From Trogon surrucura (taxonomy: Eukaryota > Chordata > Aves > Trogoniformes > Trogonidae), in assembly GCA_020746105.1 (NCBI GenBank), contig CM036634.1, forward strand, positions 1,240,001-1,304,000: a stretch of 64,000 nucleotides of DNA, in the 5' to 3' direction. The number at the start of each line of letters is the position of its first letter. Positions within the stretch are counted from its first letter, which is position 1. The notes under the pieces are model-generated. The model saw nothing but the letters and a program-made list of their open reading frames with translations, did not search any database and was not told where the DNA came from. Positions 1-61,477 of the stretch are shown here, piece after piece. The translations under genes and the position numbers were made by a program.

Positions 1-3000
1 CGTCCCCATGAAGGTGACTGTGCCACCTCTGCGAGCCTGCACCACTGAGAGCAGCCCCAGCGTCCTCATGCAGGCGACTGAGCCACCTCAGAAATACTGG
101 GGCCGCAGCATCAACATGAATGAGACCATGTCAGCTCTGAGAGCCTGGGCCACCAACACTGGCCCCATCGTCCTCAAGCAGGACACTGGGCCACCTCCAG
201 GAGCCTGCGACACCTGCGCCGCCGCCCAGGCCAGCCTCCGCCGCGTCGGCAAAGTCATCATCGGATTCTGCCAGAGCCAGAACATCCCCTCGGCTCTCGG
301 CAAGTTGCAGGAGGTCATGGACAGGGCCCCAGGCAAAAACACCCTCTCTGCAAGGGACATCAGCTGCTGGGCCTTGGAGCAGAGCAGAGACCTCTCCCGG
401 ATTGACAAACACCTCCAGATAATCTTGAAGCACATCAACCCTATGAAGCACCAGCTGGAGAAGCTGCAGAAAGAGAACGACGACCTGCGCAGACGGGTTG
501 AGGGCTTCTCCCAGGTGCTTCAAGCGGAGAAGGAGGCCCAGGCGCAGCAGCAGAAGGAGGCTGAGCTGAGCCTGGCAGCAAAGACCAGGGAGCATTTAGA
601 GGCTGTAGCCAGGCTGGAGCAGGACAAGGAGGACCTACGGAGAGGTACAGCGCTGCCCCCAACAGCCCCTCCCAGGCCCGGGGGTATTTGCTGGGAAAAC
701 ACAGAGTCTGTGCTCAGATCTGGGTCCCACCACCACGAGCGGGGCTTTGCCCCCTGATTTTGGCAGGGGCCGGGGCTGTTCCCCACCGTGAGACTAAGCC
801 CAGACGGGGGGAGCGGGTTGCCCACACCCTCGCACTGACCGCTCCCTGCTGACAGTTTCAATTCGTTCCGATTTTAAGCCCTTAATTGTAGCATTCTACA
901 AGTGAATGAGTTTCATCTCCAACAGCGTGGCTCCTTGGTTTAGCTTTTCCGAGGAGCTGTTTCCTTACTCGAGGTTTTGTGCTGCTTCAGGAGCTGCTCT
1001 GCTGGAAGGACGGATCTCCACCTTACAGGAGGAGCTGGCTGCGAAGCAGGCTGCTGTGCAGGAGCTGGGTAAGGCCCCCGGGGGCTCCCCCAGCCGCGCT
1101 CCCATCGCACGAGTGTTCTACACCCACGTAACTCCCGTCTGCCCCAGAATCGGGCGGGTGTAGCCCTGCTGGGAACGAAGGGGACCACGAGCCTCCTTCC
1201 TTGCAGTGCCCAAACGTCACCCAGCACCAGAGCGCTGGGCTGGTGCCGGTGGAGATTCGGAGGGGTCACAGCCCTCCCATCAGACCTGCCTCCCCCTCGC
1301 CAGGGCCTGGGCAGGGAGCGGAGTCCCCTGAGGACACCTGCTCTGGGAGCTTCTCCCCTCCCGCCCAGCCTGGGCCGACAGAGCTGTGTCTCTCCCCAGA
1401 AGTGACCGAGACGACCCTGCGGGAGGAGATGGCCACGATGGTGGCCGGGAGCCGGGCGCTGGAGCTGGAGGAGAAGGTGCAGCTGCTCACCGGCCAGCTG
1501 AGCGACACCAGCATCGCTCTGGACAAGGAGAAGGCCAAGACGGAGAGCATGTGGCAGCACCAGCAGGTACGGCCGGGCTCTGCCGCCCCGCAGCACGCTG
1601 TGGGCGCTGGCTGAGCTCCTCGTGGGTGCTCCCGCCCGCCGTAAGGGCGCTGGGCAGTGGGCACAGCAGCAGCCCCACAGGCTCACTCGCCCCATCCAGC
1701 TCCTGCAGGACAAGCAGAAGTCCCTGCTCCAGGATTTCCACAGGCTGGTCCAGGAGCGCAACGAGATGCGAGACAGCCTGGGGGAGGCCGAGGAGGACAA
1801 GGCCAGGCTGGACAAGCAGCTGGGAGAGAGCCAGGAGCAGATGGAGCACCAGATGCGGGTGCAGCAGGTCAGTGCTGGCTCCTGGCACACATCTGGGGAT
1901 GTGGAGCAGGGCCCCTGGGGGAGCAGAGGTTTCCTTCTGCTGTGACCTGCTGGGACATCGCCACGTGCCCTCTCTTAGCACCTAAGGACAGGGAGGGAGC
2001 TTGCCTTGGGGTGTCCGAGGAGTCCCGTGACACTGCCCTAGGCTGTCCCGTCCCCAGGTTTGGGAGCGGGCTCTGCAAACCTCACCCTCTCTGCTGTGCC
2101 ACACAGGAGCTGCTGGACGCGCTGCGCCAGGAGAAGCAGAGCCTGGAGCAGAATGTCTCGGAGCTGCGGGCAAACGGCACCAAGCTGGAGGAGCAGGTGC
2201 AGGAGCTGAAGGCGCGGGAGAGGCTCCTGGTGTGCTGCCCCGAGCTCAACATCCCCACCGAGGCCAAGTTTGAGAGTAAGGGAGCGGGTGGCAGCGTCTG
2301 CTTTCCCCGCAGTGGGAGGCACAAGGGCTGCTGCCAACCCCTGGGAGCGGGCAGGCAGCGGTGGGCTGAGCTCTGGCTCCTGCCCCAAGGATTTTGTATC
2401 TTTTTTGCAGGGACTGGGAATGTGCTTGAAGAGATGAAGCAGCAGATCCAGGCCAACCTCATCCGCATCGCTGTGATGGAGCAGGAGAACACGCGGCTCA
2501 GCCGTGCGCTGGCCAAGCTGAAGGAGGCTGCTGAGGAGGATGTGCTGGAGGTGAGGCTGCGCCCGAGCCAGGGCGAGCTGGGTGCCAGCGGGGAGAGGGC
2601 AGGAAGGGCAAGAAGCCGGGCTGGGGCTGTGATCCTTCCCTGTGCTGATCCTGCCTTTGGGAGCCCATCTCAGCCTTATAGAATCATGGAATCATAGAAC
2701 AGTTTCAGCTGGAAGAGACCTTTAAGATCATCGAGCCCAACCCCTGTCCCAGCCCTACCAACACCACCAACCCATGTCCCTCAGCACAACACCCGCTCGT
2801 CTCTTAAACACCTCCAGGGATGGCGACTCAACCCCCTCCCTGGGCAGCCTCCTCCAGTGCCTGACAGCCCTTTCAGTAAAGGCAGGGAGGGAATTCACCC
2901 TCTTTTCTCTCCTTTTCTCTTCCCCAGTCCGTCCCACGGAGCCAGCTGAACATCCAAGCTGACCAGACGGACAGTGCCCAGCAGCGAGCTGCCAGGATCA

Positions 3001-3269
3001 AGCGGCCAAAGCCTCTCTGGGCAGAGCCCAGCTACAAGGCGGCACTCCTCTGGAACGAGCACCGCGCCAGTGCCCAGCGAGATGTGGAGCGAGCACGGGA
3101 AGCTCGGGACAGAGCGCTCGCTCTCCGGGCCGGCTCGGCACGGCTGTGCCCGCTGAAGCTGCCGGCCATTCAGATCGGGAAGGGGCTCACGGGTCTCCCT
3201 CCCGGCCGGCAGCAGAGCAGTCGGGGGTCCAGGCAGGCAGGGGGGCCTGGGGGAGCGCAATTTTTCTAA
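1..3269 (+). CDS. CCDC157: CCDC157-like coiled-coil gene, copy 0 (5' end outside window)
   Basis: Seen: exons at 1-644 (rest of exon 3), 991-1068, 1400-1566, 1700-1867, 2107-2275, 2411-2550 and 2928-3269 (stop TAA), all with AG/GT borders and compatible phases (1,1,0,0,1,0). The product is heptad-rich, with charged Leu/Glu/Gln segments such as [18 protein letters not shown] and [15 protein letters not shown], i.e. a long coiled coil. The motif CDTC..AQASLRRVGK and the block [16 protein letters not shown] resemble what I remember of vertebrate CCDC157. This copy differs from A-C at many bases (for example NLIRIAV where A-C have NCIRMAV), so it split off earlier. No frameshift is seen in these exons; the exons further 5' are outside the window. 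Human CCDC157 has been linked to ER-Golgi transport (recalled, not checked). Confidence 0.8.
2682..2882 (-). repeat. CR1 3' fragment in intron 8 of copy 0
   Basis: On the minus strand this reads as the CR1 3' end ([21 protein letters not shown], then the 3' UTR ending in ATGATTCTAT-like words). The same insertion sits in intron 8 of the other three copies, so it predates the amplification. Confidence 0.85.
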
Positions 3270-3302
3270 GCCACCTCTTTTTCTATTTGCCTCCCTGTCC
3301 GG

Positions 3303-4106
3303 GGACCACCTTGGTCCTCCGGAGCCACCCAGCCCCTCCTGGAGTCCCCCCCCGGCCCCCCAGCTCCCTCCCAGGGCTGTCCCTCCAGCTCTTGCAGCCC
3401 ACGGGCCGCATCCCACATCCCCGGGGCTGACAGCCACAAGACACTGGTGCAGAAGTACCTCCGGCAGCTGTGGAACACCATCCTGCTGGTCACCCTGCTC
3501 CTCTGCACCGGCTTAATTGTGCAGGCGCAGCGGCAGTCACGGCGAGACCCCTCGGAGCAGGATGCCGAGGTGGGAATGTCTCCGCTCCGCTCCTGGCCAG
3601 CAAACGCCTCCAGATGCCGCTGTAGCAGGTCTTTCCTTGTAAGTCCGGGTTTGAAAAGGCAGAGAAATAGAAAGATGAGCCACGCAAACAGATTAAGGAC
3701 TTCTCCTTGTTGCTTCAGGGAGACAAGGAGGCCCAAGCGCAGCAGAGGAAGGAGGCTGAGCAGAGCCTGGCAGAAAAGATCGAGTCTTTAGCGGCTGGAG
3801 CCAGGCTGGAGCAGGACAAGGACGACCTACGGAGAGGTACAGCGCTGCTCCCAGCACCTGTGCTCCTGGGGGTGCAGGAGCGGGGCCCCCAAGGGAACAG
3901 AGGTTTCCCAGGAGGGGCAGCAGAGCGAGCACCAGCTACGGGTGCAGCAGGTCAGCGCTGACACCCAGCGCACATCTGGGGGTGTGGGAGCAGAGCCCCT
4001 GGGGAAGCAGAGGTTTCCCTCTGCTGGGACCTGCTGGGACATCGCCCAGACGTCCCTGGTGGGACGTCTTAGCGCCTAAGGACAGGGAGGGAGCTTGCCT
4101 TGGGAG
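3303..4106 (+). pseudogene. Decayed second 3' half of CCDC157 behind copy 0
   Basis: Contains the hydrophobic-segment exon (about 3303-3569; LWNTILLVTLLLCTGLIV) and an exon-3-end-like piece (3719-3836; KEAQAQQRKEAEQ...LEQDKDDLRRG). The acceptor before the first piece is GTCCGG here, where A-C have GTCCAG, so the AG is missing. The relic is interrupted at 4106 by a CR1 and resumes at 8399. Confidence 0.6.
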
Positions 4107-60530: not shown

Positions 60531-61004
60531 GAGCCGGACGCGGGCGACGCTGCAGCCCAGCAGCCTCGGGCCGGGCCGTGGAGCAGCCGGTCGGGGCTCA
60601 CGCCGAGTCCCCGCCACCGCAGCGCCCCCGCGTTCGGTCAAACAAGCCTCGTGTTCACTTTCTGCAGCCGACTCGTGTCGTCCTTTCTCATCAGTTCGTA
60701 GAAACCAAGCGCCGAACCCCCCCGCCCTCCCGCAGAGGGGCTCACGCCGCAGCCAGCCCGCCCCGCCCCAGCGAAGAGAAACACAACCCGAGAGCTCCAA
60801 AGGCAGAGAAATGCCCGCGGGCAGGAAGGAGCGCAGCCGCGCCAGCGCTCCCCCTGCCTCCAGCCTCCGTGCCCCCAGCCCGGCAAAGCCACGGCTGCCC
60901 CCGAGCTCCCTTGCCCGGCAGCAGCCGCCAAACACGCCCTGCCGGGGCCGGCCCCTTCCCGGGCATCTTCCGCCCGGGCCCCTCCACCGGGCGGCCGCGG
61001 CGGT

Positions 61005-61345
61005 CCTGTCCCGTGTTGGTCCCGCTCGTGTCCCGTACTGGTCCCAGTCCTGTCCCAGTGCTGGTCCCGGTCCTGTCCCGTACTGGTCCCGCTCCTGTCC
61101 CATACTTGTCTCAGTCCCGGTGCCCTTTTCCCGCTGCCGGCCCCGCTCCTGTGCCTCTGTCCCCGTTCTCTTCCAGCGCTGGTCCCGCTCTCGTAGTCCC
61201 GTTACTGGTCCCAGTCTCGCTGTCCCGCAACCGGGCTCGGTACCGCTTCCAGTCCCGTCCCGTTCTCAGGCTACTGGTCCCAGTCCCGTACCTGTATCGC
61301 TGTACTGGTCTCAGTCTCGTCCCACCTGTGCAGCCACAGCCGTGA
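61005..61345. repeat. CCCAGT/GGTCCC minisatellite, copy C (shortened)
   Basis: Fewer GTGCTGGTCCC units than in A and B. Unit similarity ends at about 61455, where about 390 bp present in A (33020-33412) is missing. Confidence 0.8.
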
Positions 61346-61477
61346 CACCGCCGCTGCTCACGCCCCGCAGTCGCGGCGCTGGGCGGTCCATCTGCGGATA
61401 TTGCATCGGGCTGGTGCTGGCCACAGAAGCAGGTCCCTGTTTGTCCCCTTTACCCCCTGCCCTGGGCAGAGCAGCAG

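Follow-up and report, generated by a model that had tools for sequence, protein, structure and literature searches.

CCDC157 (coiled-coil domain-containing protein 157) is ordinarily present as one gene per genome, and bird genomes are thought to be poor in recent segmental duplications. PMC10955179 deals with its function in mouse and man; its loss in mice leads to male sterility with Golgi and acrosome defects. Comparable gene families have been described in primates: the core-duplicon families reviewed in PMC6920530 are among the nearest known kind to the family reported here, and SPATA31 is described as single-copy and expressed in spermatogenesis in mouse (PMC5338094). Here we describe CCDC157-like copies in the trogon Trogon surrucura, starting from a stretch of 64,000 nucleotides (the window; assembly GCA_020746105.1, contig CM036634.1, positions 1,240,001 to 1,304,000 of the forward strand) that holds four copies, D, A, B and C. 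What the window by itself cannot show is that this array is just one of the clusters of a family dispersed over at least eight contigs. We favour the explanation, with a probability of about 0.72, that CCDC157 is the core of a lineage-specific gene family dispersed through the trogon genome by segmental duplication.

The family across the genome and its chimeric core

Contigs are labelled here by C-number, and the window sits on C21 (15.6 Mb). A 4-kb core probe found 32 places (C22 12, C1 6, C21 5, C31 4, C148 3, C8 1, C67 1) and a penguin CCDC157 protein matched exon 1 at 26 (C22 10, C1 6, C21 5, C31 4, C16 1); both counts are lower bounds, the best 32 of 4,991 and the best 61 of 665 candidates having been scored. 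Adding the C16 place to the 32 from the core probe gives at least 33 CCDC157-like places on at least eight contigs, part of them only partial, and 15 copies were read in detail. Five contigs (C21, C22, C1, C31 and C148) hold clusters, each with its own spacing: 26.8, 14.2 and 14.3 kb on C21; three of 25.7 kb and two of 13.15 kb, plus others, on C22; 11.8 and 14.7 kb in one C1 cluster and 31 kb in another; 23-46 kb on C31; and 13.0 kb on C148. On C22 and C31 the clusters are close to a contig end, no more than 0.8 and 0.15 Mb away, respectively. Between window copies and those of other clusters, divergence is about 7-10% in introns and 9-12% in exons 4-8; it reaches 15% in the introns of C67 and about 15% in exons 4-8 of C148 and C67. 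Flanking segments are common to some blocks and not to others. A core shared by interspersed blocks on several chromosomes with such mosaic flanks is core-duplicon-like, and these comparisons show duplication with dispersal, local clusters, a chimeric core and mosaic flanks.

The C16 place (C16:8907790-8910260, minus strand) is an old CCDC157 relic, matching the penguin protein at 69% in exon 1 and with six stops in its exon-3 match. It alone surpasses the C21 copies in exon 1 (69% over residues 1-84 vs 59-63% over residues 1-119), and none of the best 61 of 665 penguin-search candidates fits a slowly evolving, intact CCDC157 elsewhere in the genome. A protein database search with the short C31 type returned 20 proteins, none of them close.

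Most informative for the origin of the family is a further copy, F, 0.33 Mb from the window array. It lies beside SF3A1, recognised by its Surp exons and a PDB match to 'Splicing factor 3A subunit 1', and on its other side is a RING-finger gene with a RING domain, which we take to be RNF215; the order SF3A1, CCDC157, RNF215 is presumably that of human 22q12. Only F occupies this position, whereas the window array adjoins NF2 (PDB match 'Merlin', FERM_N and ERM_C domains), and F is presumably the ancestral CCDC157 site. The features of F and of the chimeric core, as seen in copy A of the window, are:

C21:1630558-1638381: copy F, between SF3A1 and the RNF215-like gene
30170..30321, +: inverted 152-bp piece of the RNF215-like gene, matching C21:1639406-1639255 (minus) at 91%
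30385..31455, +: older internal partial CCDC157 copy, with an exon-3 tail (30385-30578) and the stretch from the exon-6 tail to exon 8 (30641-31455)
33300..35300, +: 3' unit segment, with matches at the C22 and C1 clusters and one on C18, absent beside F

Segment 30641-31455 of the internal copy is 85% identical to 28551-29362 and has equivalents at 44844-45658 in B and 59115-59930 in C. Copy F, between its two conserved neighbours, already holds both the same internal partial copy and the inverted piece, and the examined C22 and C1 copies carry the two chimeric features as well, the inverted piece (87% on C22, 89% on C1) being followed in them by the exon-3 tail of the internal copy. The inverted piece is absent from the 1.8-kb C31 stretch examined, where it would be expected. 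Downstream of the internal copy, at 33494-34213, are remnants 75-87% similar to the intron between exons 1 and 2 of F, a hint that the unit may contain even earlier duplications.

A careful tree of exons 4-8 from 13 copies and 26 bird proteins placed all 13 copies in one clade (support 100/100), within which they form a ladder by contig: C31/C8 first, then C1, C22 and C21, with F inside the window group. Taken with the chimeric piece, the ladder is compatible with successive seeding of sites from a master locus, C31/C8 having been seeded before the piece was gained; a later gene conversion of F fits too, as does loss of the piece in C31.

The course of events that we favour would have F as a master seeding other sites at different times; alternatively, gene conversion would have made F and the window array alike at a later date. 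Local arrays may have grown by unequal crossing-over between units, and duplicative transposition could account for the jumps between chromosomes. The copies would be transcribed mainly in testis, from putative CpG-rich promoters. They might add to the amount and the variety of CCDC157, a coiled-coil protein of the Golgi and acrosome, with selection tied to sperm function.

The window array and its gene model

As the first-pass annotation had claimed, at least four copies lie in one orientation: self-BLAST and MAFFT place A, B and C head to tail and D separately, all on the + strand. The exon offsets and scattered differences that it gave were reproduced (14,203-14,204 from A to B, with 14,202 for exon 9, and about 14,271 from B to C). 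The features are:

1..4109, +: copy D, 3' part, with the exon-3 tail to 644 and exon 1 beginning at window -2220
991-1068, 1400-1566, 1700-1867, 2107-2275, 2411-2550, +: copy D, exons 4-8
2928-3269, +: copy D, terminal open stretch ending in a stop
19284..24123, +: upstream flank common to A and D (A 19284-24976 corresponds to window -7623 to -1861, 96%)
24124..38306, +: copy A, full 14.2-kb unit
24617-24864, 25517-25689 (7-C run, frame broken), 26294-27359, 27706-27783, +: copy A, exons 1-4
28115-28281, 28415-28582, 28822-28990, 29126-29265, 29650-, +: copy A, exons 5-9
26514..26803, +: 60-bp coding minisatellite (20-amino-acid repeat) in exon 3 of A, with equivalents at 40721-41006 (B) and 54992-55277 (C)
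35907..37070, +: reverse-transcriptase open reading frame (ORF) of a long interspersed nuclear element (LINE) inside the unit, with its B equivalent at 50177-51340
38264..38306, no strand: A/B junction region, GC-rich, where B-D homology starts, about 560 bp before the ATG
38307..52577, +: copy B, full 14.27-kb unit, 849 amino acids open
38821-39068, 39721-39892, 40497-41562, 41909-41986, +: copy B, exons 1-4
42318-42484, 42618-42785, 43025-43193, 43329-43468, 43852-44193 (stop), +: copy B, exons 5-9
52578..61460, +: copy C, 3'-truncated unit, 849 amino acids open
53092-53339, 53992-54163, 54768-55833, 56180-56257, +: copy C, exons 1-4
56589-56755, 56889-57056, 57296-57464, 57600-57739, 58124-58465 (stop), +: copy C, exons 5-9

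A and B differ at 48 of 14,181 aligned bases and B and C at 49 of 8,891. Over about 4,109 bases, D has 79 mismatches with A, 77 with B and 80 with C. Chance could not come near to producing repeats of such length and identity. Copy C does belong to the tandem series, but its match ends at 61460. Traced outwards with 100 kb of flank on each side, the homology of D begins 2.7 kb upstream of the window, at C21:1237288, so that D is cut by the window start rather than truncated and also has exons 1-9. On the other side the array is interrupted by a run of 23,502 N (window +65080 to +88581; C21:1305080-1328581), beyond which lies the 3' end of one further CCDC157 unit, and it therefore extends past the window.

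The gene model has nine exons, and all eight introns are GT-AG. With exon 9 extended to the first stop as a provisional 3' end, B and C are open over 849 amino acids each and D over 869. The two fully open copies of the first-pass annotation were thus an undercount once D is followed outwards. Copy A breaks off after 162 amino acids because its exon-2 C-run is one base longer (7 C vs 6). In exon 3, the minisatellite of D has one 60-bp unit more.

The earlier naming of the gene agrees with the protein search, in which copy B gave 369 matches at E up to 0.001 (best E 9e-219); among the 120 listed, the only specific names are CCDC157 or CC157, the others being unnamed, hypothetical or uncharacterised, and all organisms named are birds. 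A tblastn search with owl CCDC157 matched exons 1-3 and 5-8 in A, B, C and D. By this similarity, which covers most of the protein, the amplified gene is identified as CCDC157. Copy B has a median identity of 62% (best 66%) to the 120 bird proteins, whereas the median among those proteins is 73%. A quick 50-row tree, with 47 bird proteins, unites the 3 window copies in one clade; the stem of this clade, at 0.67, exceeds every other branch drawn. Pfam scans of a 392-amino-acid CCDC157-like stretch and of the predicted protein returned no families; PF28226 is listed for most of the database matches, and the Pfam set searched missed it even in penguin CCDC157, which carries that label. An Rfam scan of the window at gathering thresholds gave no match. 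A CpG-rich stretch upstream of the ATG in A, B, C, D and F (GC 0.81-0.82, CpG observed/expected 0.86-0.96) is a putative promoter. Upstream of the junction point, B and C carry new sequence, and regulation may therefore differ between copies.

The 15 kb or so separating D from A (4110-19283) lies outside the unit and contains CR1 and an endogenous retrovirus (ERV)-like element. In the latter (13643-19284), direct repeats at 13643-14283 and 18633-19284 (92%) flank a pol stretch with RNase H and integrase domains, and on the right it ends just where the flank common to A and D begins. Pieces of that flank recur at C21:0.16 Mb, on C1 and C11, and upstream of 11 of the C22 places, the best candidates only having been scored in the flank-segment searches. 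The C21 piece, at 159484-162291 near the contig start, is a 93-95% copy, and no core-probe match fell there among the 32 of 4,991 candidates scored. LINE ORFs with reverse transcriptase and endonuclease, which we take to be CR1-type, lie at 4619-6938 (minus), 35907-37070 and 50177-51340; the stretch at 5.0-6.35 kb has 90-93% relatives on many contigs, including C60-C62 and C67 (best 40 of 5,214 candidates), which suggests fairly recent LINE activity. Elsewhere in the assembly, the mitochondrial contig C164 encodes an ND2 that over 346 amino acids is 100% identical to a database cluster named Trogon surrucura, with T. viridis next at 94%. Nuclear ND2 matches at C9:27595312 and C9:27617530 score as high as C164 and are possibly recent mitochondrial insertions.

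Reading frames and competing explanations

The diverged open paralogues that the first-pass annotation had thought possible do exist. Exons 3-8, as aligned, are open in 13 of the 15 sampled copies, A included despite its broken exon 2, and this with subfamilies differing by about 10%; the other two are C67, whose exon 3 contains two stops and has changed in length, and C148, where exon 4 contains a stop and the end is shifted. Nineteen places match the penguin protein over the long exon-3 stretch; 17 of them (C22 12, C21 5) do so without a stop, while C67 has one and C16 six. Compared with D, the copies C22a, C22b, C1a, C1b, C31a and C8 have no frame-breaking indel in exons 4-8 (C8 has one of 6 bases) despite 4-8 indels each in their introns, and the exon indels of the broken copies measure 16 and 6 bases in C148 and 15 and 30 in C67. 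In a neutral simulation the probability that the frame stays open was 0.04-0.08 for C22a, C1a, C1b, C31a and C8 and 0.45 for F, all these comparisons using D and hence not being independent.

For exons 4-8 in 13 copies, omega (the ratio of nonsynonymous to synonymous substitution rates, dN/dS) was 0.40 under F3X4, 0.90 under F1X4 and 1.42 with equal frequencies; for exon 3 in 10 copies the same three codon models gave 0.69, 0.86 and 0.95. The F3X4 model has the best likelihood, and omega = 1 is rejected (2dlnL 28.7). Ratios by the Nei-Gojobori method (NG86) run from 0.2 to 1.9 within clusters, on few changes. Since the codon models disagree, positive selection is not claimed; we conclude that the predicted CCDC157 frames are mostly kept, that protein change is fast and that positive selection is not shown.

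Several observations weigh against the favoured explanation or parts of it. The homology of F to A ends at 32451, and F is without the 3' segment common to the window, C22 and C1 clusters, which counts against a plain master model, as such a model does not predict it. Shorter exon-3 matches (residues 273-384 or less; C31, C22, C21 and C1), which are taken for the internal partial copy, carry one or two stops. As aligned, C31, C8 and C148 are without most of exon 3 and have AC rather than AG as exon-5 acceptor; C148, C67 and C16 contain stops, C148 has its 16-base exon indel, and A is frame-shifted. The dN/dS estimate for exons 4-8 depends on the model (0.40-1.42), and NG86 values between subfamilies scatter around 1 (about 0.5-1.6, exons 4-8), so that weak constraint or decay may apply to part of the family. 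B and C differ by just 0.3-0.5%, within reach of haplotype duplication in the assembly, and the family reading rests on 15 of the at least 33 copies.

These same data bear on a second, possible though rather doubtful explanation, which overlaps the structural part of the favoured one: that the copies are mostly non-functional segmental duplications, in which CCDC157 is a passenger in unstable, repeat-rich blocks, with F and perhaps a few others working while the rest drift and decay. The NG86 ratios near 1, the broken copies A, C67, C148 and C16, the loss of most of exon 3 from C31 and C8, the LINE and ERV-like sequence in or beside the unit and the position of the C22 and C31 clusters close to contig ends are all in keeping with it. 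It accounts less well for the 13 of 15 open copies, for the six divergent intact copies that kept their exon frames while their introns gained indels, for the low neutral chance of escaping a stop in five of those six, and for the omega of 0.40 under the best-fitting model.

An improbable special case of the favoured explanation is selfish amplification, with copies acting as, or suppressing, a male germ-line transmission distorter and conflict driving copy number. The known sperm role of CCDC157, the separate local expansions with different spacing and the long branch before the radiation of the copies are in keeping with it, but branch length alone also fits relaxed constraint.

It is very unlikely that unmerged haplotypes and mis-joins in the assembly made the copies. 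In favour of this reading, B and C are 0.32% apart outside exons and 0.46% within them, the N run interrupts the array and the frameshift of A is a homopolymer length difference, and for the near-identical pair B/C the artefact that the first-pass annotation had allowed for is still a possible origin. It fails for the family as a whole, since outside exons D stands 2.7-3.0% from A, B and C and since the subfamilies are about 10% apart, with distinct flanks and spacing on different contigs.

Hardly credible, finally, is the ampliconic locus of a sex chromosome or germline-restricted chromosome on which the window had earlier been speculatively placed: the need for CCDC157 in mouse sperm and one degraded copy on C67 (87.9 Mb), which could be Z, would suit it, but the 32 core-probe places fall on seven contigs, which range from 0.38 to 222 Mb, and the window and F share C21 with NF2, SF3A1 and the RNF215-like gene, a block that is autosomal in other birds (chicken chromosome 15; human 22q12).

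Comparison with known systems

Under the favoured explanation, the trogon family is an unusual case of a fertility-linked gene that multiplies and diverges, and dozens of diverging copies would offer a natural test of how such families start. It lets one ask if sperm shape responds to additional copies and if the dynamics of core duplicons extend beyond primates; on the practical side, CCDC157 orthologue calls in trogons may be unreliable. More speculatively, the family could be a bird core duplicon in which the ancestral locus F of an essential sperm gene repeatedly threw off chimeric copies that settled on other chromosomes, amplified and diversified as working genes, driven by sexual or meiotic conflict; we offer this fuller scenario only tentatively. 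No report of CCDC157 amplification or of an avian core duplicon was found among the titles and opening lines of abstracts of open-licence papers, and 'CCDC' occurs nowhere in the text of a paper on trogon satellites (PMC12651973), which takes GCA_020746105.1 as its chromosome-level assembly of Trogon surrucura.

Compared with single-copy CCDC157, the predicted trogon protein matches that of other birds and F keeps the place between SF3A1 and the RNF215-like gene, whereas the trogon has at least 33 places instead of one, with additional 20-amino-acid repeats in exon 3, the internal partial copy and the inverted RNF215-like piece. For the sandgrouse Pterocles gutturalis, too, the database contains three CCDC157-like proteins, whose contigs are of two lengths, but these form a clade of their own apart from the trogon copies and thus probably reflect a separate, smaller duplication. 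Primate SPATA31 (PMC5338094) is similar as a gene of spermatogenesis multiplied by segmental duplication with fast protein change; it has also gained new domains and wider expression, which may set it apart from the trogon family. The nearest known kind is the primate core duplicon, above all NPIP/LCR16a, for which PMC7419210 describes a gene-bearing core in interspersed blocks, mosaic flanks, repeated expansions and coding tandem repeats varying between copies, as in the trogon. The primate families are also marked by positive selection and broad expression. The trogon family, for its part, belongs to a bird, and several of its clusters are tandem arrays on different chromosomes.

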